Positions 6,582-19,899 of a stretch of 26,431 bases of DNA are shown here, piece by piece. Source of the stretch: a virus; the IMG/VR virus record IMGVR_UViG_3300025853_000551, positions 1-26,431 of that record. The stretch is one strand, 5' to 3'. Position 1 is the stretch's first letter, and every line of letters begins with the position of its first letter. The notes under the pieces were generated by a model that saw nothing but the letters and a program-made list of their open reading frames with translations, did not search any database and had not been told where the DNA came from. The position numbers and the translations under genes were made by a program.

Positions 6582-8339
6582 ATGGCAACTAATCCTCCAC
6601 CTATCGTAGGAATGCAGCCAGTTGACATTTATATGGGAACACAGGCAACTGCCCCAGTAATGCCAACACAGGCAGAATACACTCCTCAGCAACAAGTTGT
6701 CCAACAGAATGAGCTTGTAACCCCTACCTCAGGGCAAGTTTCTGGTACTGTCCCTACTCCAACCACTCTTGCAGCAGCAACTGGTGCACAAGGGCAAGCA
6801 CCTACAGCGGCGTCTGCGTACCAAGCGGCAACAACAGCAGGACAAACACCTACAGCTACCGCTGCACAAGGGACTGTAGGACAGCAAGCACAAGCACAAG
6901 CTGCACAGCAGGCCGGCCTTACACAACAAGCACAAACTGCTCAAGGTACGGTTGCTGGTACCGTACAGCCAGGCCTTACACGTCAGGTTGGCGCACAGGA
7001 ACAAATCCAAGCTGCACAAGCTAGCACTGCGTTTTTACAGCCGTATCAAGCTGCACAATCAGGTTTCGTAAGCACCGCGCAAGGTGCAACTATGCAAGTT
7101 ACGCCAAATATGACCGTAGAAGGGCAACTTGCACGTCTTTCTCAGCAGTTTTCTGGAGGCCAGGTACCAGCATGGGCAGCAGGCGCAATTCGTGAAGCTA
7201 ATTCACAGATGGCGGCACGTGGTCTGTCTGCTTCTTCAATGGCTGGTGCGGCTATTGTACAAGCGGCTATGGAAGCTTCTGTTCCAATTGCTAACGCTGA
7301 CGCACAGACATATTACAAAACTGCATCACAGATTATGGCCAATGACCAACAAGCAATCTTGGCCAACACCCAGAATAACCTTAATGTAGACTTAGCTAAT
7401 ACATCTAATCGCCAGCAAATGGCACTGGCTAAACTACAGGTTAACGCTTCTTTGGCAGGACAAGAACTCAGCAACCAACAACAAGCTAACGTCCTCAACG
7501 CTGAAAAGTTCGCCGAAGCCGCAAACATGACGTTTAACTTTGAACAACAACGTCAGTTTGCAAACTCTAAAATGGTTGAGACGCTTAATCTACAGAATCT
7601 TAACAACCAGCAAACAACAGCATTAGCAAATGCTTCTGCAATGGCACAGCTAGATGTAGCCAACTTGAATGCAAGACAACAAGTAGCTGTACAAAATGCT
7701 CAATCATTTTTACAGATGGATATGAGTAATCTGTCCAATGCACAGCAAGCAAATGTTATAAATCAACAAGCACAACAACAAGCGATGCTGTCAGACCAAG
7801 CGGCGCAGAACGCAGCAGCACAATTTAATGCTACGTCACAAAACCAAGTTGACCAGTTCTTTGCTAATTTATCTCAAGATATCAATAAGTTCAATGCTAC
7901 AGCTGCTAATGCTTCTCAACAGTTTAACGCTGGACAAGCTAACGCAATGCAACAATTTGCCGCAACAATGACTAATCAACGTGAACAATTTAATGCAACT
8001 AATGCTTTAGCTATTGAACAAAGTAATGTACAATGGCGTCGTGACATTAACACAGTTAATACTGCGGCGCAGAATGCGGCTAACCAAATTAACGCCGCGA
8101 ACTACCTTAGCATATCAAATACTGCTCTCAATAACATATGGCAGCAGTTCCGTGATGAAGCAGATTACGCTTACTCGTCTTCTGAAAACTCAGCAGACCG
8201 TGCCTTTAACATGGCTATGGCTGTTCTGGAAGCAGACATTAACAAAGATATGTATAACAGCTATCTTGACCAGCAAACTGCGTCATCCATCGGTTCTTTC
8301 TTAACGTCTCTAGGCGTGGCGTATATCCAAAATTCATAG
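6582..8339 (+). CDS. Ala/Gln/Asn-rich virion protein with hendecad repeat, putative ejection protein
   Basis: The gene encodes 585 residues. A ribosome site (AAAGGA) precedes the ATG. Residues about 1-175 are low complexity, rich in Gln, Ala, Thr and Pro. Residues about 180-250 form a compact helical domain (PAWAAGAIREANSQMAARGL) that I recall from structural proteins of marine phages. Residues 270-522 are a gapless 11-residue repeat (separate entry), predicting a very long alpha-helix or helical bundle with few charges. The C-terminus (RDEADYAYSS...) is helical. I recognise no enzyme motif. With the two giant proteins downstream it probably belongs to the internal core or DNA-ejection apparatus (functional analogues of T7 gp14-gp16); this is inferred from size, composition and neighbourhood. 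Confidence 0.7.
   Translation: MATNPPPIVGMQPVDIYMGTQATAPVMPTQAEYTPQQQVVQQNELVTPTSGQVSGTVPTPTTLAAATGAQGQAPTAASAYQAATTAGQTPTATAAQGTVGQQAQAQAAQQAGLTQQAQTAQGTVAGTVQPGLTRQVGAQEQIQAAQASTAFLQPYQAAQSGFVSTAQGATMQVTPNMTVEGQLARLSQQFSGGQVPAWAAGAIREANSQMAARGLSASSMAGAAIVQAAMEASVPIANADAQTYYKTASQIMANDQQAILANTQNNLNVDLANTSNRQQMALAKLQVNASLAGQELSNQQQANVLNAEKFAEAANMTFNFEQQRQFANSKMVETLNLQNLNNQQTTALANASAMAQLDVANLNARQQVAVQNAQSFLQMDMSNLSNAQQANVINQQAQQQAMLSDQAAQNAAAQFNATSQNQVDQFFANLSQDINKFNATAANASQQFNAGQANAMQQFAATMTNQREQFNATNALAIEQSNVQWRRDINTVNTAAQNAANQINAANYLSISNTALNNIWQQFRDEADYAYSSSENSADRAFNMAMAVLEADINKDMYNSYLDQQTASSIGSFLTSLGVAYIQNS
7389..8147 (+). repeat. Region coding 23 gapless 11-residue repeats
   Basis: Cutting the 585-residue protein every 11 residues from Asp270 gives 23 consecutive units with no insertion or deletion, for example DMSNLSNAQQA, NVINQQAQQQA, QQFNAGQANAM, EQFNATNALAI, NQINAANYLSI. 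By my count column 4 is Asn in 16 of 23 units; column 11 is usually hydrophobic and columns 2-3 frequently are. Eleven residues are three helical turns, so this predicts a nearly straight amphipathic helix or hendecad coiled coil. The DNA itself is too diverged to show obvious direct repeats, so the pattern is maintained at protein level. Confidence 0.75.
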
Positions 8340-8347
8340 GTAAATAA

Positions 8348-8620
8348 ATGTTTGAATTTATTGCACAAGCCGTTATGGGTGGCATAATGAGCGGCGGTAA
8401 AAGCGACAGGCAACAGCAAGTTATGCGGGAACCACAACGCGTAAACTTAACGCGTTACATGCGGCCTACTGGTCGTAGAAGCAGTGGTGCGCGGCGTAGC
8501 ACAGCGGCTTCTGTAACAACGGCATCTCCTCATATTGGAAATAGCCAATATACTGCGCAACTACGCGGAATGTTGCGTGACCAATTAAGTACAAAGCAAG
8601 CAACAACTCCAAAGGCATAG
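8348..8620 (+). CDS. Small basic hypothetical protein, probable virion component
   Basis: 90 residues. The first 16 residues (MFEFIAQAVMGGIMSG) are moderately hydrophobic and glycine-rich, similar in style to N-termini of phage structural proteins; the middle is strongly basic (RYMRPTGRRSSGARRS). The gene lies in a run of virion genes on the same strand, eight bases after the 585-residue protein gene, with TAGGT as a weak ribosome site. No family recognised. A nucleic-acid-contacting or core-associated virion role is plausible from charge and position only. Confidence 0.65.
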   Translation: MFEFIAQAVMGGIMSGGKSDRQQQVMREPQRVNLTRYMRPTGRRSSGARRSTAASVTTASPHIGNSQYTAQLRGMLRDQLSTKQATTPKA

Positions 8621-8622
8621 AT

Positions 8623-9153
8623 ATGTTAGAACTTCCTGAGAATCTTACACTTCCATCAGGACGGGAAAAGTCCCGTTTTGACACAGCTATTCCTGGTCAA
8701 TCTTTGACCAAGGCGCCTAAGTCTTACCCTTGGGATAGCCCTCCGCAATTTACGGATGCTGACAGTATTGTAGAATTCTACATGGACAGATTTAATCAAG
8801 AAGAAGTCTTGTTTAATTTGTTTGCTATGCTTGAAGCAAAAGTTCCCGTAACTAAAATTATTGATGCTATGCTGCTTCATGGGTTCTCAGAAGGCTTGTA
8901 CACACCTGACTTAGCTATACTTGTAGCTGAAGATTTGACAATGATTATTATGCTTATAGCTGAAGAAGCTGGCATAGATTATGTAACTGGCGCTAAAGAT
9001 AATACCATGCGAGCGCTAAAACAAGCCACAAAGTTAAAAGAAGCTTTAGTAGAGCGTGAAGAAATGTTTATGCCACAGGTAGAAGAAAAACTAGAAGAAT
9101 TGCGCGCAGAACGTAAGGGGTCTGGCCTAATGAGCCCAATGGAGACTGAATAA
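8623..9153 (+). CDS. Conserved-type phage structural protein, 176 residues
   Basis: The N-terminal part holds a proline-rich stretch (IPGQSLTKAPKSYPWDSPP, about residues 23-41) that I recall as a conserved signature of a virion-associated protein in many marine T7-like and pelagiphage genomes. The rest is predicted helical with an amphipathic hydrophobic segment (DLAILVAEDLTMIIMLIAEE, about 95-115) and a charged C-terminal helix (QVEEKLEELRAERK). Function unknown. It starts two bases after the previous stop and its own stop overlaps the next ATG (TAATG), so it is part of the same translation-coupled virion operon. Confidence 0.72.
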   Translation: MLELPENLTLPSGREKSRFDTAIPGQSLTKAPKSYPWDSPPQFTDADSIVEFYMDRFNQEEVLFNLFAMLEAKVPVTKIIDAMLLHGFSEGLYTPDLAILVAEDLTMIIMLIAEEAGIDYVTGAKDNTMRALKQATKLKEALVEREEMFMPQVEEKLEELRAERKGSGLMSPMETE

Positions 9154-11555
9154 TGGCAGGTTTGATGAGTGGAATTATTCGTGGCGGTTTAGATACTGCT
9201 ACCGATATTATTCAAACTGGGCTGAAACAAGGCCAGAAGAATATTGAAGATGATGTAAAAGGTTTTGGTGCTAAATTCAAAGACTATCAAAACAAGCAAA
9301 GCGTGTTTGAAGCTGAGTCTGCGACGATTAAAGAAACGGCTGCTGCATTGGCGGCACAAGATGATGAGTTTCTTAAAAACTTAAGTCCGTCCCAATTAGA
9401 GGGCGTGGCACAAACATTGCTGACGTATTCTGGGCAGAAAACGACGGCATCTGCTATGGAATTCTTTACTAAAAATCGCGATAAGCTAAACGTTAAGCCT
9501 GTTCAGCCTACAACTGAAACAGCTGTTACACCTACAGATGCACAGACAACTGCGGCTATGGAACAGCCTGCGTCTGCGCCTGCAACTACAGATGACAGGT
9601 CATTCCTTGAAGTAGTATTCGGCGGGATGCCTGCCGAAAAAAGAAAAAGCGAAGTTGCTAAACGCCTCGGCATTTCTGTAGAAGAATATGATACTGTGAT
9701 GGCAGGCAAAGTGCCTACGCGTGCGCCGTCTACTATGCAAATTGGTATTGGACAAGACGACAAATATGAAAAAATTATTGATGGACGCCAAGAAAAAGTT
9801 TTGAGTGCTATTAGTAAGCAAGCTTTCTTACGTATGGAAAACATAGAAATGCCAGATGGTACTAAAGTAACTGGTAAAGCCTTTGCTAGCAGCATGCTTC
9901 GTGCTTATGAAGATTATAAGGTTCATGGTGGGGATGGCGCTGCGCTAGCTAAAATGCAAAACTTTGCACTGACACTTACTATGCCGCCAGACCTAAAAGA
10001 TTTCTTTAAAAATCATCACGGTAAAGCCATTGATGCTATCTCTGCCGGTGTATCCAATTCTGCAATTCCACAAAAACAACGCGAAAGACTTGCTACTATT
10101 TCTCAAGAATTAACAGACCACATGTTCAATGCAGTTAGTGTTCCAGGATATGCCACGCAAGAAGGTAATGCGTCTAAAGTACAAGCCTTGGTTATTGAAG
10201 GCAGAAAGCTTTTAGCTTCAGAAGTTAAAGATGGAAAAACTAAGCCATATGATGTAGAAATTATTGAAAAATCTATCGACAATATTCTTACTAGAGCTAA
10301 CTCTACAAGTAGCACTGCTCCTCAACTAAAGCCAGAATATGCTGAGCAAGTGTTTGGTCTCCGCTCTAAACTTGTAGAAGCCCGTAACTCTGAAGACCCT
10401 GTAGCTTCTATAAAAGCGCTAGCGGATGAAGTTAGAGATTTAAGTGTGAGTGCATTTACAGCGGCACCAAATACTCCTAATGCAACAGAAGTAAAACTTA
10501 CTAATACCATAAATATGCTGAGAGATATGCCCAGATTTAAAAATAAATCTGATGAAGAGCTTACAGAAATTGCAGGCAAATATCTTGCTCTTAATCCTAA
10601 CGGGCCGCAAAAAGATAAAGCAGGGCGCGTATTTGTTATAATGCCGACGCCTAATGGGCCAGTAAGTGTACCTGTTGGCACAGAAACAGGCGAGGGATAT
10701 GTTGCTTCTCTTACGCCAGACCAAGAAGTTGAGTATCGCACTAAAATTAAAGATAATTCAAGAAGCTTGAATTTGTATGCGGAACTAACAGATACTGTTG
10801 CCGAGAATCCGCTTGTATACACAGCTTTTGGTAAAATGGCGGTACGCGGTGCTACATATGCTGATATTGCAGGCGAATTAACTGGTACAAATATTGGGCA
10901 AGCATACAGCAGATACTTTAACATCCCGCAAAATGCTGAAGCGCAAAGACGCGCAATTGAACTTGTAGGCACAGCTAAAGATAGGCTGTTTGATGACCCA
11001 CGACTTTCTGACCAAGACTTGCGCCTTGTGTTGCAATACATTGCGGTTATTGAGCAAGGCGGTTTAGGCACTGGCGCTACTCAATCAATCGCTGCTTTGC
11101 AAGGTCTGCAGATGGCATTGCTTAAAGATACCGCGTCTCGTATGTACTCTCTATCCGGTAATAAAATGCCGGTATTGCCAAAGGCTACAAGAGCAGGCGG
11201 CGAGCTTGATTTCTATGATGATAACGGGCAATTTATCGACAAAGACGCGCTTGCATCACGGCTATTCTTGCAAACAGCTTCCGCATACAAATTTAATGTC
11301 CAGCCGCTTAGTGTCGTAGCTAATATGCCAGCTAATGAACAGCAGCTGTATCTTGCTAAGCACGACATGATTCAAAACATGGTTGAGAGCGCTTTACATG
11401 ATATTGTAACATATGAAGCACTAGGCGTTGATAGGCTTACAGCACCGTCTAACCTGATGTCTATGGGCGAGGTTAATAACGGTATCATGAACATCGACGG
11501 AACAGATTATAGAGTACAAGCTCTAGAAGATGTAAAACGCTCCAGAGGTATTTAA
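9153..11555 (+). CDS. Large internal virion/ejection-type protein, 800 residues
   Basis: Starts with MAGLMSGIIRGGLDTATDII, a glycine-rich amphipathic beginning, followed by predicted helical and coiled sequence (KNIEDDVKGFGAKFKDYQNK). Residues about 110-145 are a Pro/Thr/Ala linker. The remainder is a mix of long helices with no recognised catalytic motif. Length and place directly before a still larger protein match the pairing of T7 gp15 (747) and gp16 (1318), which form part of the transperiplasmic DNA-ejection conduit; I infer an equivalent role without visible sequence homology. Both ends overlap neighbours by one base (TAATG at each), indicating coupled translation and possibly fixed stoichiometry. 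Confidence 0.65.
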   Translation: MAGLMSGIIRGGLDTATDIIQTGLKQGQKNIEDDVKGFGAKFKDYQNKQSVFEAESATIKETAAALAAQDDEFLKNLSPSQLEGVAQTLLTYSGQKTTASAMEFFTKNRDKLNVKPVQPTTETAVTPTDAQTTAAMEQPASAPATTDDRSFLEVVFGGMPAEKRKSEVAKRLGISVEEYDTVMAGKVPTRAPSTMQIGIGQDDKYEKIIDGRQEKVLSAISKQAFLRMENIEMPDGTKVTGKAFASSMLRAYEDYKVHGGDGAALAKMQNFALTLTMPPDLKDFFKNHHGKAIDAISAGVSNSAIPQKQRERLATISQELTDHMFNAVSVPGYATQEGNASKVQALVIEGRKLLASEVKDGKTKPYDVEIIEKSIDNILTRANSTSSTAPQLKPEYAEQVFGLRSKLVEARNSEDPVASIKALADEVRDLSVSAFTAAPNTPNATEVKLTNTINMLRDMPRFKNKSDEELTEIAGKYLALNPNGPQKDKAGRVFVIMPTPNGPVSVPVGTETGEGYVASLTPDQEVEYRTKIKDNSRSLNLYAELTDTVAENPLVYTAFGKMAVRGATYADIAGELTGTNIGQAYSRYFNIPQNAEAQRRAIELVGTAKDRLFDDPRLSDQDLRLVLQYIAVIEQGGLGTGATQSIAALQGLQMALLKDTASRMYSLSGNKMPVLPKATRAGGELDFYDDNGQFIDKDALASRLFLQTASAYKFNVQPLSVVANMPANEQQLYLAKHDMIQNMVESALHDIVTYEALGVDRLTAPSNLMSMGEVNNGIMNIDGTDYRVQALEDVKRSRGI

Positions 11556-14500
11556 TGGCTAATCTAGCACAACAGATGCAGAACAAAGGGTTTAACCCTG
11601 CGCCTGCACCCGCAACAACTCCAACACAACCAGAAGAAGATAAGTATAATCTTCCCGGCCCTATCGAAATTTACCCCGGTGTTACGTTTGACCCGCAGGT
11701 AGCTAAGGATGAACCGGAAGAAAATTACTTATTTGGTTTGTTCAAAGGCCCATCTGCAAAAGCATACACCCCAACTACCCCAGCAATGCGTGCTCAGTCC
11801 GAGCAAGCTTTTGAAGCTGCTCGTATGGAACGTCTTACGCCAAAAGCGCAGGAATATGGCGTAAATGTAAATCCGTACGGAACGCAAATTTCTGACTTAA
11901 TTAGGCAAAAAGCCCCAGAAGGAATGTTTGAGGGGCAGTCCCAATTGTACCTTGCTGATACTGATGAACAGTATATGAATGCAATGGAAAATATATTTGG
12001 CGAAGGCAACGTCCGTATGATTAAGGACGAAGGCCCGAAAGTAAGTATGTTTGACGCTACAAACTATATCTCTGTAAAAGACGATACCGGCGAATGGACA
12101 GACTTTGCGCCTGCGTCTACTAGCTTTAAGGACTATGCCGAACGCGTAGCGCCGGGGCTTATTGCTGAAGTTGGTGCATCTACTGCTATTGTTCCTGCAG
12201 CTTTTGCTACTAGCACAGCTGTATCCGCTGTTACAGGCCCGTTTGCTTTAGTACTAGGCCCAGCAACATTTGTATATACCCTGTATGCTGGCGGCAAAGG
12301 AATAGAAGCTGGAAGACAATATCTGCAAGATGAACTTGGACTTAACGACCAAGAAGCTATTGATTTTTCTGGATACTTAGATGCGGCGTACAAAATTGGT
12401 GTTCCTCAGATTGAGGGCATGACAATAGATAAGCGTACCCCTGCTGAGACACAGCGTGAAGTATCTGGAATTTTAGAAATGGCGTTTGCCACAATTCCAG
12501 GGCTTGCTGATAAAATGAAGTTAGCTATTGGGCGGGTGCGTAGCAGTGGCAAAATTGGCCCGACTACATATGAATCTGCTGTTAGCGCAACTAAAACTGT
12601 TGAAGCCACTATGCCAGGCGGCGCTATGGATATAGGCGTACCGCTGGAAAACTTGATGCTTCAACAAATTACGCCAAATAAAATTGTTGAACGCCTCGGC
12701 AAACTTACTGAACAAACTTCTTTAGTCATACCCCTCAAGGTACGTGAGCAGATGCAGTCTGCTGTTGCGTATTTGAAGCAGTTTGGGCAAAACGTAGGGC
12801 AAGGCGACTTCACTAAGTTTCGTAACGAAGTTGCAAGCATTGGGCAGACATTGCAATCTGTAAAGAATGCTCCTAACCCAGACGAAGTTGTTAAAGACCT
12901 GACCACTATAGGCGAAAATTTAGGCACATTAGATGATTTGTTTTTACGTCTACGCGGTATTGAAGCACGTGGACTATATAATAACGTCTTTGATAAAGTT
13001 AAAACTTCCTCGTATGACTTAGATAAAATACGCGCACTTCTTCCTGAAGGCACTAGAACTATTATTCCGACTACCCCTGCCGGTGCTACGCGCACAAGTA
13101 AAGACAAAGTAGCTGGTGCCGTACCTCCGCCTAAACGTGGGGAACGCCTTGTTGATGATTTAATTACTGACTTAATGAATCTTGGCCGTGTGCAAAAAGA
13201 TGGTACACGAGTTATGACACCAGCACAGGTAAAAGCAGCAGTAAAAGACTTTACTGAAAAGAACCCTGGGTTTGAGTTTGACCCTAAAAACCTAGATAGC
13301 CCAGCAAAGATACTACATTTGTATGCGTCTCGCTTTGGCCAACTTGCGCGTGATAATTTCAGCACAGCAGGAACAACACCAGACAGTGCACAATTCAGAC
13401 AAGCAATGGAAATACGGAATGCTTTGCTTGATTTGATTGGCAATCCTACAAAACCTGTAGCAGGAGTTGCAGATGACTTGGCTACAGCTAATTCATTTTA
13501 CAAAGAAACGTTTGATTTATCTAGCACAGAAGCTCAAATTGCTGCGCGTAACTCACGCCGCGGTGCTATCAAGGGCGAACCTGCTGTATTGCCAGAAACT
13601 CTGGCTACAACTCCTACAGCTGGTGGTCGTGTAGCCCCAGGCACTATTACTATGGAAAACATCAACGCACAAGAAAAGTATGTGCGTGATTTCTTAAACA
13701 ATCCAGCTAACGTAGAAAAAATTACGGCTGATACTGCTGAAAAATTTGAAGTTGCAGGAGGAGCAGCACAACAACTCAAAGACTATTTTGCAAACACAAT
13801 TTCTAGCAAATTAGCTCGTGCTACTCCTACAGACCCTGCTGATGTAGTTGGTGCTAATGAAGTTATTAAGTTTCTTGATTCATTTGAGCCAAGACAGTTA
13901 CGTGCTCTGGGAATTGACGAAGCAACAGAAGCACAAATTCGTAACGACGCAACTTTAATAGCTAACCTTCAAAGAGGTGGTGCAGTAGAGCAAGTGCTAG
14001 GAGCGCCGGCGCGAAGCACTATGGCAGAACAATTTGAAACTATATTGCGCGGTGATACAGCACAAGTACGCACAGGATTTAATGAATTACTTAGCGTAGT
14101 AAGAAGAGCGGCAACGCCAGAAGCAAAAGATGCCGCAAAGGAAAATCTACGCCAAGGGCTACTAAACCACATAATTTCTCCTCAAAGCGGAGTCCTCAAA
14201 CAATTGTCTTCTAACTCTGCATATGGAGAAGTAGGACAATACACAATTGATGTACCTTCTTTGCAAAAAGTAATTGAACAGCTTAACAAAGTTAATGCTT
14301 TCGACGATATCCTAACAGCACAAGATAAACAAGTACTAGATGGTATCGCTGAGTATGCTGGCGTAGTAGCAAAACGTGGCGAAGATGCAGGTTCTGCTCT
14401 TGCTGGTGCGCAGATTATCGGTGAGATGTTTACGTTAGACCCAAGTAAATTTGTGGCTGGATTAGCTAGACTAGGTTCGCAAGCTCGTATTGCACGATTG

Positions 14501-14749
14501 TTTGCTAACGAAGAGTTTGTAAAAGCTGCTACAGGGATTGGCAAACCAATGTCTACTGCTGAAAAGCTTCGTACTATGTTCTTCGGCAAAGGTACTATGG
14601 GCACCATAGCTGCGCGTATTGCTATGGAAGAAATGGGATTTCGTGAGTCAGATGACGAGCAAACAAATAGGATGCTACAACAAAGTGCAGCATCCTCGGC
14701 TCTTGGTAGAAGATTACAACGGTACCAGAACGCACCTACGACACCTTAA
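11555..14749 (+). CDS. Giant virion/ejection-type protein, 1064 residues
   Basis: The longest gene in the window and the last of the + strand arm. Residues 1-30 are Pro/Ala/Thr-rich. Residues about 201-247 (GLIAEVGASTAIVPAAFATS onward) form a long Ala/Val/Gly-rich hydrophobic stretch that could insert into a membrane. The rest is predicted mostly helical. I looked for a lytic transglycosylase or lysozyme motif, as in T7 gp16, and did not find one I can defend. The start overlaps the preceding stop by one base. The TAA at 14747-14749 overlaps the TAA of the convergent gene. DNA-ejection role inferred from size, hydrophobic stretch and order. Confidence 0.65.
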   Translation: MANLAQQMQNKGFNPAPAPATTPTQPEEDKYNLPGPIEIYPGVTFDPQVAKDEPEENYLFGLFKGPSAKAYTPTTPAMRAQSEQAFEAARMERLTPKAQEYGVNVNPYGTQISDLIRQKAPEGMFEGQSQLYLADTDEQYMNAMENIFGEGNVRMIKDEGPKVSMFDATNYISVKDDTGEWTDFAPASTSFKDYAERVAPGLIAEVGASTAIVPAAFATSTAVSAVTGPFALVLGPATFVYTLYAGGKGIEAGRQYLQDELGLNDQEAIDFSGYLDAAYKIGVPQIEGMTIDKRTPAETQREVSGILEMAFATIPGLADKMKLAIGRVRSSGKIGPTTYESAVSATKTVEATMPGGAMDIGVPLENLMLQQITPNKIVERLGKLTEQTSLVIPLKVREQMQSAVAYLKQFGQNVGQGDFTKFRNEVASIGQTLQSVKNAPNPDEVVKDLTTIGENLGTLDDLFLRLRGIEARGLYNNVFDKVKTSSYDLDKIRALLPEGTRTIIPTTPAGATRTSKDKVAGAVPPPKRGERLVDDLITDLMNLGRVQKDGTRVMTPAQVKAAVKDFTEKNPGFEFDPKNLDSPAKILHLYASRFGQLARDNFSTAGTTPDSAQFRQAMEIRNALLDLIGNPTKPVAGVADDLATANSFYKETFDLSSTEAQIAARNSRRGAIKGEPAVLPETLATTPTAGGRVAPGTITMENINAQEKYVRDFLNNPANVEKITADTAEKFEVAGGAAQQLKDYFANTISSKLARATPTDPADVVGANEVIKFLDSFEPRQLRALGIDEATEAQIRNDATLIANLQRGGAVEQVLGAPARSTMAEQFETILRGDTAQVRTGFNELLSVVRRAATPEAKDAAKENLRQGLLNHIISPQSGVLKQLSSNSAYGEVGQYTIDVPSLQKVIEQLNKVNAFDDILTAQDKQVLDGIAEYAGVVAKRGEDAGSALAGAQIIGEMFTLDPSKFVAGLARLGSQARIARLFANEEFVKAATGIGKPMSTAEKLRTMFFGKGTMGTIAARIAMEEMGFRESDDEQTNRMLQQSAASSALGRRLQRYQNAPTTP

Positions 14750-18576: not shown

Positions 18577-18756
18577 TCAATCACATGAGTCTAGACGAGA
18601 TAAAATAGCCACGTATGTTCCGTCCTCGTCGTTGTGGGTGGAAATAACTCTAGTATCGTAGGCTATCGTTGGATACTGAGTCTTGTATCTTTCAATGTCT
18701 TCCTGCAATTCTGCAGAGCTATCTGCAGTCAATAGTACACGCATATCTTTAGGCAT
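18577..18756 (-). CDS. Small hypothetical protein between methyltransferase and DUF3310
   Basis: 59 residues; ATG at 18756 with AAGGTGG upstream, TGA at 18579-18577. The product runs MPKDMRVLLTADSSAELQED, then a helix and strands (IAYDTRVISTHNDEDGTYVA) and ends LSRLDSCD. Its start overlaps the methyltransferase end by eight bases. The alternating strand/helix pattern and the filled gap between two recognised genes make it likely real. No family recognised. Confidence 0.65.
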   Translation of the reverse strand: MPKDMRVLLTADSSAELQEDIERYKTQYPTIAYDTRVISTHNDEDGTYVAILSRLDSCD

Positions 18757-19690
18757 TTTGCGCCACCTTTATTGCTTCACCAATCTGTTGTGCTATCTGA
18801 GGTACTATAGCGTTACCTAATCCTTTAAGACGGTCCACCCTTCTGGATACCCCATTAGCCACTCTACCCACGTCGGGTTCAGAGTACCAGTTCCACTTTG
18901 CCGCACTTCTGGATGATTGCCAAGCATTTTCTGCATTTTGTCGCCCGGCTGGCCGGCCTTGTGTTCGCTGGCGGACGGCGTTGGCCACATCTTTACCTCC
19001 GCGCAAAGGTAGTTCCTGTTGTACATATGTGTGTGGCTCTTGCTTCCCACTGGGCCGCAGTCCTTGTGTTCCGATGCTCGTGGAGTCGGCCACATCCGTA
19101 CTTGGTCTGCTAGGTTCGCCCCAAACTTCAGATTGGGGTTGGTCTTGCTCACCCTGCGTCCTTTCTCGTCCAGCTGTCTCGGTCCCCCTGTCACATCCGT
19201 TGTCCTCGGTGTAGCCCACAATCCAGACTCGGTTTCTTTTGTGGGGTGCGCCGACGGCGACAGCTGGAACAATAAACGTCCTTGTGGTGTAGCCTTCGGA
19301 TTCCAAGTCAGCGAGCACAGCGTCGAGTCCCAAGCTGATGTGACCATAAACGTTTTCGAAAACAACCCAAGTGGGTCTTTTGGATGCAACAATTTTGAAG
19401 ATGCTCGGCCAGATGTGGCGTGGGTCTTCTTCGCCTTGCCGTTTGCCGGCTTGACTGAAGGGCTGGCAGGGGTATCCTGCTGTGATGATGTCACAGTCTG
19501 GAACAAATCTTGCTGGGTCATTAGCTAACACCTTTACGTCTTCGGCTACAGGAACTGTAGGCCAGTGTTTCTTTAGGATTCTGCGACACCACGGTTCGAC
19601 ATCACAAAACAAAACAGGCACAGACAACTTCGCCATCTCAAAACCTAACGCGAAGCCGCCAATGCCACTGCATAAATCTACGTGTCTCAC
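18749..19690 (-). CDS. DNA (cytosine-5) methyltransferase
   Basis: 313 residues from the GTG at 19690. That start is chosen because GGAG lies seven bases upstream and GTGA forms a four-base overlap with the previous stop; an in-frame TTG at 19711 lacks both. Motifs: I DLCSGIGGFALGFE (5-18), IV GYPCQPFS with catalytic Cys75, VI ENV (112-114), VIII HKRNRVW (150-156), IX-X RLKGLGNAIVPQIAQQIGEA (287-306). The target-recognition segment (about 160-270) is polar and low in hydrophobics. It transfers a methyl group to C5 of cytosine, probably to protect phage DNA from host restriction; no partner endonuclease gene is adjacent. The region is GC-richer than its neighbours (34 of 60 in 19021-19080), hinting at separate acquisition. 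A second long frame lies inside it. Confidence 0.92.
   Translation of the reverse strand: MRHVDLCSGIGGFALGFEMAKLSVPVLFCDVEPWCRRILKKHWPTVPVAEDVKVLANDPARFVPDCDIITAGYPCQPFSQAGKRQGEEDPRHIWPSIFKIVASKRPTWVVFENVYGHISLGLDAVLADLESEGYTTRTFIVPAVAVGAPHKRNRVWIVGYTEDNGCDRGTETAGRERTQGEQDQPQSEVWGEPSRPSTDVADSTSIGTQGLRPSGKQEPHTYVQQELPLRGGKDVANAVRQRTQGRPAGRQNAENAWQSSRSAAKWNWYSEPDVGRVANGVSRRVDRLKGLGNAIVPQIAQQIGEAIKVAQNA
18817..19521 (-). CDS. Possible overprinted protein inside the methyltransferase gene
   Basis: A 234-codon frame on the same strand, shifted by one base relative to the methyltransferase. It opens with ATG at 19521, preceded by AAAGGTG at a workable distance, and ends with TAG. It reads ATSGRASSKLL, LTWNPKATPQGRLLFQL (72-88), three copies of a W-P/A-T-P-x-x-S/T-E/D motif (101-109, 143-151, 178-186) and LNPTWVEWLMGYPEGWT (214-230). 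I recall proteins with exactly these motifs in phage and bacterial databases, usually of unknown function and near cytosine methyltransferases. Against it: the region is GC-rich, several antisense frames are also open here, and the database proteins may themselves be shadow frames. Real or not is unresolved. Confidence 0.4.
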   Translation of the reverse strand: MTQQDLFQTVTSSQQDTPASPSVKPANGKAKKTHATSGRASSKLLHPKDPLGLFSKTFMVTSAWDSTLCSLTWNPKATPQGRLLFQLSPSAHPTKETESGLWATPRTTDVTGGPRQLDEKGRRVSKTNPNLKFGANLADQVRMWPTPRASEHKDCGPVGSKSHTHMYNRNYLCAEVKMWPTPSASEHKAGQPGDKMQKMLGNHPEVRQSGTGTLNPTWVEWLMGYPEGWTVLKD

Positions 19691-19899
19691 TTTATTACTC
19701 CGAGTACCCAATTTTCAGCACAATTTTCAACGTACACTTCGCTGTGTCCTTTGATATTGCGCTCTTCAATAATGGCTCCGTCTTGCATCATTATAACGGT
19801 AAAACTGCCATCGGGTTCTCGGAATACGGTTGCTTTTCTATATGCTGCAAGCCCACGACTACAATCTTCATCACTATAGAATTCGTGTAATAAAGTCAT
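19687..19899 (-). CDS. Small hypothetical protein upstream of methyltransferase
   Basis: 70 residues, ATG at 19899 with GAGGT before it. It begins MTLLHEFYSDEDCSRGLAAY and continues with strands (SFTVIMMQDGAIIEERNI) and an aromatic C-terminus (ENWVLGVIK). The stop TGA overlaps the methyltransferase GTG (GTGA), implying coupled translation. No family recognised; predicted as a small soluble alpha/beta protein. An anti-restriction or regulatory role cannot be read from sequence. Confidence 0.65.
   Translation of the reverse strand: MTLLHEFYSDEDCSRGLAAYRKATVFREPDGSFTVIMMQDGAIIEERNIKGHSEVYVENCAENWVLGVIK

Follow-up and report, generated by a model that had tools for sequence, protein, structure and literature searches.

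Overlapping reading frames of a phage cytosine-5 methyltransferase gene appear to encode separate catalytic and specificity chains

A gene in the viral sequence studied here (the window, a whole stretch of 26,431 nucleotides) very probably specifies a two-chain DNA cytosine-5 methyltransferase from overlapping reading frames, in which the nested frame, beta, encodes a specificity chain that supplies target recognition and motif IX in trans. In this model, alpha, the chain read from the methyltransferase frame, would bind AdoMet and carry out catalysis through motifs I-VIII and X and would have an unstructured linker where a recognition domain would be. Ribosomes would also initiate at an internal ATG behind its own Shine-Dalgarno sequence and produce beta, in which an N-terminal domain is followed by three exchangeable recognition cassettes and then by motif IX. 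Beta would then dock on alpha and complete the small DNA-recognition domain in trans, with each cassette probably adding one target sequence. Both the expression of beta and its assembly with alpha are what we infer from the evidence below. The nested frame is neither a shadow of the methyltransferase nor a gene born de novo, which settles, with neither answer, the question of overprinted newborn versus shadow posed by the initial annotation.

The features of the gene are listed below, with the evidence for each in brackets; alpha residues are numbered from TTG 19711.

18749-19690, minus strand: alpha subunit of the cytosine-5 methyltransferase, with motifs I-VIII, linker and motif X (Pfam, AlphaFold2, Foldseek)
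19529-19535, minus strand: Shine-Dalgarno-like AAAGGTG of beta (retention of ATG plus Shine-Dalgarno, enrichment of the site)
18817-19521, minus strand: predicted beta subunit, 234 aa, +1 frame, with N-terminal domain, three putative recognition cassettes and motif IX-like end (phrog_1008, codon-position flip, openness)
19454-19477, minus strand: alpha motif IV, GYPCQPFS, with the catalytic cysteine at residue 82 (Cys82 and its neighbours invariant in 99 sequences)
19349-19357, minus strand: alpha motif VI, ENV (invariant in 99 sequences)
19229-19237, minus strand: alpha motif VIII, RxR (Arg159 and Arg161 invariant in 99 sequences)
18863-19204, minus strand: alpha linker at the place of the recognition domain, unstructured and unconserved as alpha protein (pLDDT ~40; identity 0.585 versus 0.901)
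18794-18823, minus strand: alpha motif X, GLGNAIVPQI (Gly299-Asn300 invariant; the methyltransferase-type codon pattern is back here)
19219-19422, minus strand: beta conserved N-terminal domain, residues 34-101, with hairpin SLTWNPKATPQGRLLFQL (ratio of position 3 to position 1 change of 0.40-0.77 at alpha residues 100-149; hairpin pLDDT ~82)
19093-19218, minus strand: beta putative cassette 1, beginning WATPRTTDVTGG (family in 26 of 110 proteins, in first or middle position)
18988-19092, minus strand: beta putative cassette 2, beginning WPTPRASEHKDCGPVG (family in 15 proteins, in first, middle or last position)
18889-18987, minus strand: beta putative cassette 3, beginning WPTPSASEHKAGQPG (family in 23 proteins, always in last position)
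18832-18882, minus strand: beta motif IX-like segment LNPTWVEWLMGYPEGWT (holds most invariant columns of 110 sequences; motif X comes next in single-frame and split homologues)

The beta ORF starts with ATG 7 nt downstream of AAAGGTG and lies wholly within the methyltransferase ORF (18749-19711, minus strand) in the +1 frame, just as the initial annotation had described for a shifted frame of 234 codons. The motifs quoted there for the nested frame are also present, as three W-x-T-P modules (WATP, WPTP and WPTP) followed by the motif IX-like segment. Alpha probably starts at GTG 19690 rather than at TTG 19711. This GTG has GGAG 7 nt upstream and overlaps the stop codon of the preceding gene as GTGA; the overlap of the upstream TGA with the probable alpha start (19687-19690), together with the GGAG, suggests translational coupling.

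Alpha matches Pfam DNA_methylase (8.7e-40), with the match limited to residues 9-185 of 320, and its motifs I, IV (PCQ), VI (ENV), VIII (RxR) and X (GN) are invariant among 99 homologues. Canonical enzymes have LTPREC..LQGFP in frame between motifs VIII and X. The same interval of alpha contains no conserved block at residues 188-277, and neither a recognition domain nor a motif IX of its own was found there. In the structure modelling, five rows from phage records were left out of the input. An AlphaFold2 model built from the 99 sequences has pLDDT values of ~95 at residues 8-167 and ~94 at residues 301-320, which include the motif X helix; residues 188-283 have values of ~40 and no secondary structure. 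The best Foldseek match of the model is M.HhaI (2e-14 over 168 columns). With its core and motif X ordered and its linker disordered, alpha lacks a small domain. Collectively, these data show that alpha has no recognition and motif IX part of its own.

We next consider whether both frames are genes. In loci gathered from phage records, viral contigs and bacterial genomes, beta is open over its full length, always at an offset of +1 from alpha, in 250 of 250 related loci, a count biased by the retrieval of this set with beta itself. Nested beta is likewise present in all 80 loci retrieved with the alpha N-terminal segment, a query made from beta-carrying loci. The loci share descent, and their numbers are not numbers of independent events. 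Codon reshuffling was applied to 164 loci, likewise retrieved with beta, that are less than 80% identical to one another. Resampling alpha codons synonymously leaves 0.43 open beta frames expected against 164 of 164 observed, and the reciprocal resampling of beta codons leaves 0.28 open alpha frames expected, again against 164 of 164.

The pattern of substitution changes under the overlap. At this offset, alpha codon position 3 is beta position 2 and alpha position 1 is beta position 3. In pairs at 0.10-0.15 divergence, the divergence at alpha positions 1, 2 and 3 is.143,.086 and.358 outside the overlap, the pattern of an ordinary gene, versus.226,.070 and.099 inside it: alpha third positions are nearly frozen and first positions, the third positions of beta, are variable. 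In sliding windows, the ratio of position 3 to position 1 is 1.6-4.3 ahead of the selected part of beta, 0.4-1.1 over motifs VI-VIII, 0.08-0.14 at alpha residues 170-209 and 3.3 directly after the end of beta. At alpha residues 170-209, the two frames have amino-acid identities of 0.585 (alpha) and 0.901 (beta), as against 0.819 and 0.477, respectively, in the non-overlapping N-terminus. By contrast, canonical T4-like methyltransferases used as a control show no flip, with ratios of 2.3-7.3 throughout, recognition region included, and in three canonical enzymes the frame corresponding to beta is broken by 11-26 stops. Alpha and beta are thus both coding and selected, and within the linker the methyltransferase frame looks like a passive reading.

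These findings bear on the idea that the nested ORF goes untranslated and only reflects conserved methyltransferase codons, its family being an annotation artefact. In keeping with that idea, every nested-form homologue found sits over a methyltransferase, and in the sliding windows no separate selection on beta is seen over its first ~20 residues. However, a shadow would not make alpha third positions cease to be the most variable and nearly freeze under the nested frame, nor make the nested frame the better conserved of the two at residues 170-209; the retained start with its Shine-Dalgarno site and the occurrence of PHROG 1008 in frame in other phages, both described below, also speak against it. 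On the codon-position flip, the synonymous reshuffling and the canonical control, we rejected this reading and regard it as extremely unlikely. The initial annotation was right that both frames are meaningful. Its alternative suggestion, that a large hypothetical family is a shadow of methyltransferases, fails: over the recognition region purifying selection on beta exceeds that on alpha. It had also named stops in the second frame of close relatives and a lack of purifying selection there as observations against a gene; instead, the frame is open in each of the 250 related loci and the codon-position patterns show selection on beta.

Beta appears to have its own initiation site. Of 140 loci, 124 (89%) have an SD-like site ahead of the beta start, versus a background of 20% at other positions, and such a site is common to divergent alpha sequences (VKELAND, TLTKESFYE and TREVLEQDG). 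ATG and SD are retained together in 109 of 124 loci, when synonymous resampling of alpha codons predicts 26.5. This retention favours internal initiation over programmed frameshifting, in which a ribosome would exit the alpha frame after motif VIII, read beta and re-enter before motif X to make one long chain. A single chain of that order is known in mycobacteriophages. Yet the scheme requires two shifts and does not account for an ATG and SD belonging to beta; moreover, beta is selected as protein upstream of any useful shift point (alpha residues 100-149), and the alpha linker is kept free of stops (164 observed versus 0.28 expected). We consider frameshifting very unlikely.

What kind of protein is beta? 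It matches PHROG 1008 (3.9e-34), a family labelled 'DNA methyltransferase' in the category other, and so the statement in the initial annotation that database proteins carry the nested-frame motifs proved correct. Searches of Pfam and NCBIfam gave no family match, and a profile search found no relatives of solved structure. AlphaFold2 modelled beta alone poorly (pLDDT 62, pTM 0.26), with a hairpin at residues 70-90 and a helix at the motif IX-like segment; a fold search with this weak model returned no meaningful match. The motif IX order L-x-P...L-x-G-[FY]-P is present in beta as LNPxWVEWLMGYPxGWT, and motif X comes next in single-frame homologues. The canonical motif, L-T-P-R-E-C-x-R-L-Q-G-F-P-D, would have as its counterpart L-N-P-T-W-V-E-W-L-M-G-Y-P-E. 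Profile comparison with canonical methyltransferases places LNP..GWT on motif IX, although not significantly, for beta (E 0.71) and for a set of split and fused relatives (E 0.19).

The relatives fall into three architectures. In the first, that of the window and most loci, alpha contains motifs I-VIII, linker and X, and beta is nested. The second is that of the Arthrobacter phages Andrew (gp43/44, L282) and ArV1 (067a/067b, L290) and of phiBT1 (L378): alpha ends after motif VIII, and the cassettes, motif IX-like segment and motif X all belong to a beta read in an overlapping frame. In the third, motifs I-VIII, LPTP cassettes, EWMMGWPAGWVT and motif X follow one another in one frame, as in the mycobacteriophage proteins Ramsey gp69 (L283) and prophiT46-2 gp23 (L287). 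PHROG 1008 also matches the separate Arthrobacter phage beta chains (2e-74, 3e-64). In the single-frame mycobacteriophage enzymes it matches the C-terminal half (2e-72, 7e-56), with Pfam DNA_methylase covering the N-terminal half only. Consistent with this, nested beta aligned with the set of split and single-frame proteins in a profile comparison (98.4%, E 9e-15). Since PHROG 1008 is common to the nested, separate and in-frame forms, beta is best read as a recognition domain plus motif IX acting in trans. These sequence comparisons place the beta family at the recognition and motif IX position of single-frame homologues, and the family label hides that its members would be this part rather than a whole methyltransferase.

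Could beta instead have been overprinted de novo and serve a purpose other than methylation, such as anti-restriction or regulation, while merely sharing its DNA with the enzyme? The missing Pfam match and solved-structure relative would fit such a gene. However, single-frame methyltransferases share homology with beta across their C-terminal half, as do separate beta chains bearing motif X, and a recognition domain and motif IX are just what the alpha frame is missing. A newborn gene should have no homologue outside the overlap; since phrog_1008 members stand in frame with a catalytic domain, we rejected this candidate and judge it quite improbable. No homologue detached from a methyltransferase occurs among the 250 aligned loci, and three plasmid matches (L372-L374) hold no detached beta, each having a methyltransferase in the other frame. 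The check for homologues in loci without a methyltransferase, proposed in the initial annotation, thus came back empty among the loci examined. With the family in frame in single-frame mycobacteriophage methyltransferases as well, the notion of an overprinted newborn that later became independent does not stand.

Out-of-frame HNH genes within phage methylases have been described (PMC11855218), and the nested ORF might analogously be a homing endonuclease inserted out of frame in the methyltransferase gene, as is the ShiLan element of mycobacteriophages. Both cases involve a second frame within a phage methylase gene. The ShiLan element, however, is a mobile insertion of sporadic distribution (PMC11855218), whereas beta belongs integrally to the enzyme gene and the nested ORF is present in every close relative. 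No HNH or other nuclease match was found in beta by Pfam, NCBIfam and PHROG searches, and the ORF is not an insertion because it extends over motifs IV-VIII. The probability of a mobile element here is close to negligible.

Beta proteins contain one to five 'WxTPxxxD' cassettes of ~35 residues (three in the window), flanked by the conserved N-terminal domain on one side and the motif IX-like end on the other. The 315 cassettes in 110 beta proteins form 110 clusters, and several cassette families are found at the first, middle or last position. In 186 pairs of proteins, a cassette is at least 80% identical yet the N-terminal domains are at most 55% identical; conversely, 28 of 66 pairs with N-terminal domains at least 80% identical have no cassette family in common. 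These sequence patterns indicate that cassettes have been exchanged between viruses, as exchangeable recognition units would be. In the methyltransferases of the Bacillus phages SPR, phi3T and rho11s, motifs VIII and IX are separated by a contiguous run of several short recognition cassettes of ~40 aa. By analogy, the beta cassettes would recognize DNA, with one target per cassette. The likeness lies in the layout, tandem exchangeable cassettes of ~35 versus ~40 aa; the multispecific Bacillus enzymes are one chain in one frame, whereas in the window a second frame holds the array, which would form a separate chain, the single-frame state being that of some mycobacteriophages. For the Bacillus enzymes, Trautner et al. 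1996 is cited in PMC12707154.

The frame of these elements differs among close relatives. In relatives of Ramsey (mycobacteriophages and relatives, L387-L419), the cassettes, the motif IX-like segment and motif X are mostly in the alpha frame and are in the +1 frame in three loci (L403, L405 and L408), which are 90-92% identical in the best segment. Most single-frame loci keep an N-terminal beta piece with at least one cassette in the +1 frame, and change at alpha position 3 is reduced over this piece (ratio 0.42-0.88 at alpha residues 121-155). A single gene thus carries cassettes in both of its frames. The roles of the frames thus change between relatives of the two-frame gene.

Two-chain cytosine-5 methyltransferases have precedents, and the window enzyme is best read as a heterodimer like M.EcoHK31I. 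M.EcoHK31I is a heterodimeric YGGCCR enzyme, to which M.EaeI is similar, and its small chain is read from an alternative frame inside the large-chain gene. M.EcoHK31I requires two polypeptides, a large one with motifs I-VIII and X, as in alpha, and a small one with motif IX, and its predicted recognition domain is assigned to the large subunit (PMC3404938). That assignment differs from ours: in the window, our data place the recognition region in the small chain as well, as an array of exchangeable cassettes. Our loci also differ from M.EcoHK31I in being orphan phage genes, with no adjacent nuclease in the loci read. M.AquI, an alpha/beta enzyme, similarly has catalytic motifs in one chain and the rest in another (PMC3404938); its beta has motifs IX and X, matching the Arthrobacter phages (L282, L290) and unlike the window, and the sources consulted describe no cassette array for it. 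Direct searches of the literature on overlapping frames in cytosine methyltransferases found nothing on the nested arrangement.

The window gene is probably an orphan phage enzyme that would protect phage DNA from host restriction. The two-in-one gene is spread over hundreds of phages and many bacterial phyla. Phage records with the gene come from phages of Bacillota, Actinomycetota, Pseudomonadota and cyanobacteria; contig titles, from which the bacterial phyla were taken and whose metagenome bins may include phage contigs, name Bacillota, Pseudomonadota, Acidobacteriota, Bacteroidota, Chloroflexota, Verrucomicrobiota, Nitrospirota, Actinomycetota and others. In two plasmid loci read with wide flanks the neighbours are prophage genes, with no restriction nuclease among them. 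Nested, split and single-frame forms all exist, the last two among closely related mycobacteriophages. We lean, by a little, toward a broader reading in which these genes make up a large, mostly unrecognized class of two-chain phage and prophage cytosine methyltransferases, with swappable arrays of ~35-residue cassettes nested in a second frame and several targets per gene; cassettes could move between frames, and the choice of frame would be a source of new specificities. The two-chain model would account for the many phage methyltransferases with two annotations, an 'inactive' label or an apparent lack of a recognition domain. If cassettes correspond to targets, phage genomes would hold a readable record of the restriction sites that each phage had to hide. 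The gene is also among the clearer cases of two long frames strongly selected in the same DNA, one frame dominating in some regions and the other elsewhere.

Several annotations of relatives deserve mention. In Streptomyces phage phiBT1 (L378; ORFs at 1510-2010 and 1628-2557), gene 9.1 overlaps an unannotated ORF that contains cassettes, motif X and a motif IX-like segment. The annotation 'DNA methylase may be inactive' was given to gene 9.1 because its frame stops after motif VIII; judged by its ORFs, the phiBT1 enzyme may be split and active rather than inactive. Both frames are annotated as DNA methyltransferase in phages of Paenibacillus (L002, 2781-3851 and 2983-3687), Escherichia (K1ind2; L285, 1607-2536 and 1695-2492) and Xanthomonas (L286, 1652-2644 and 1734-2639). 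In the marine phage Deep1-GF2-KM23-C739 (L006, 2755-3591), an N-terminal methyltransferase piece and beta are annotated as two genes; what remains of alpha continues in a different frame, which points either to a frameshift in the assembly or to another organization of alpha. Elsewhere in the window, three large ORFs at 6582-14746 (585, 800 and 1064 aa) have no PHROG match at 1e-4. Finally, a chromosome assembly of an uncultured Roseovarius (G002) contains five identical-scoring copies of the locus (L096-L100).
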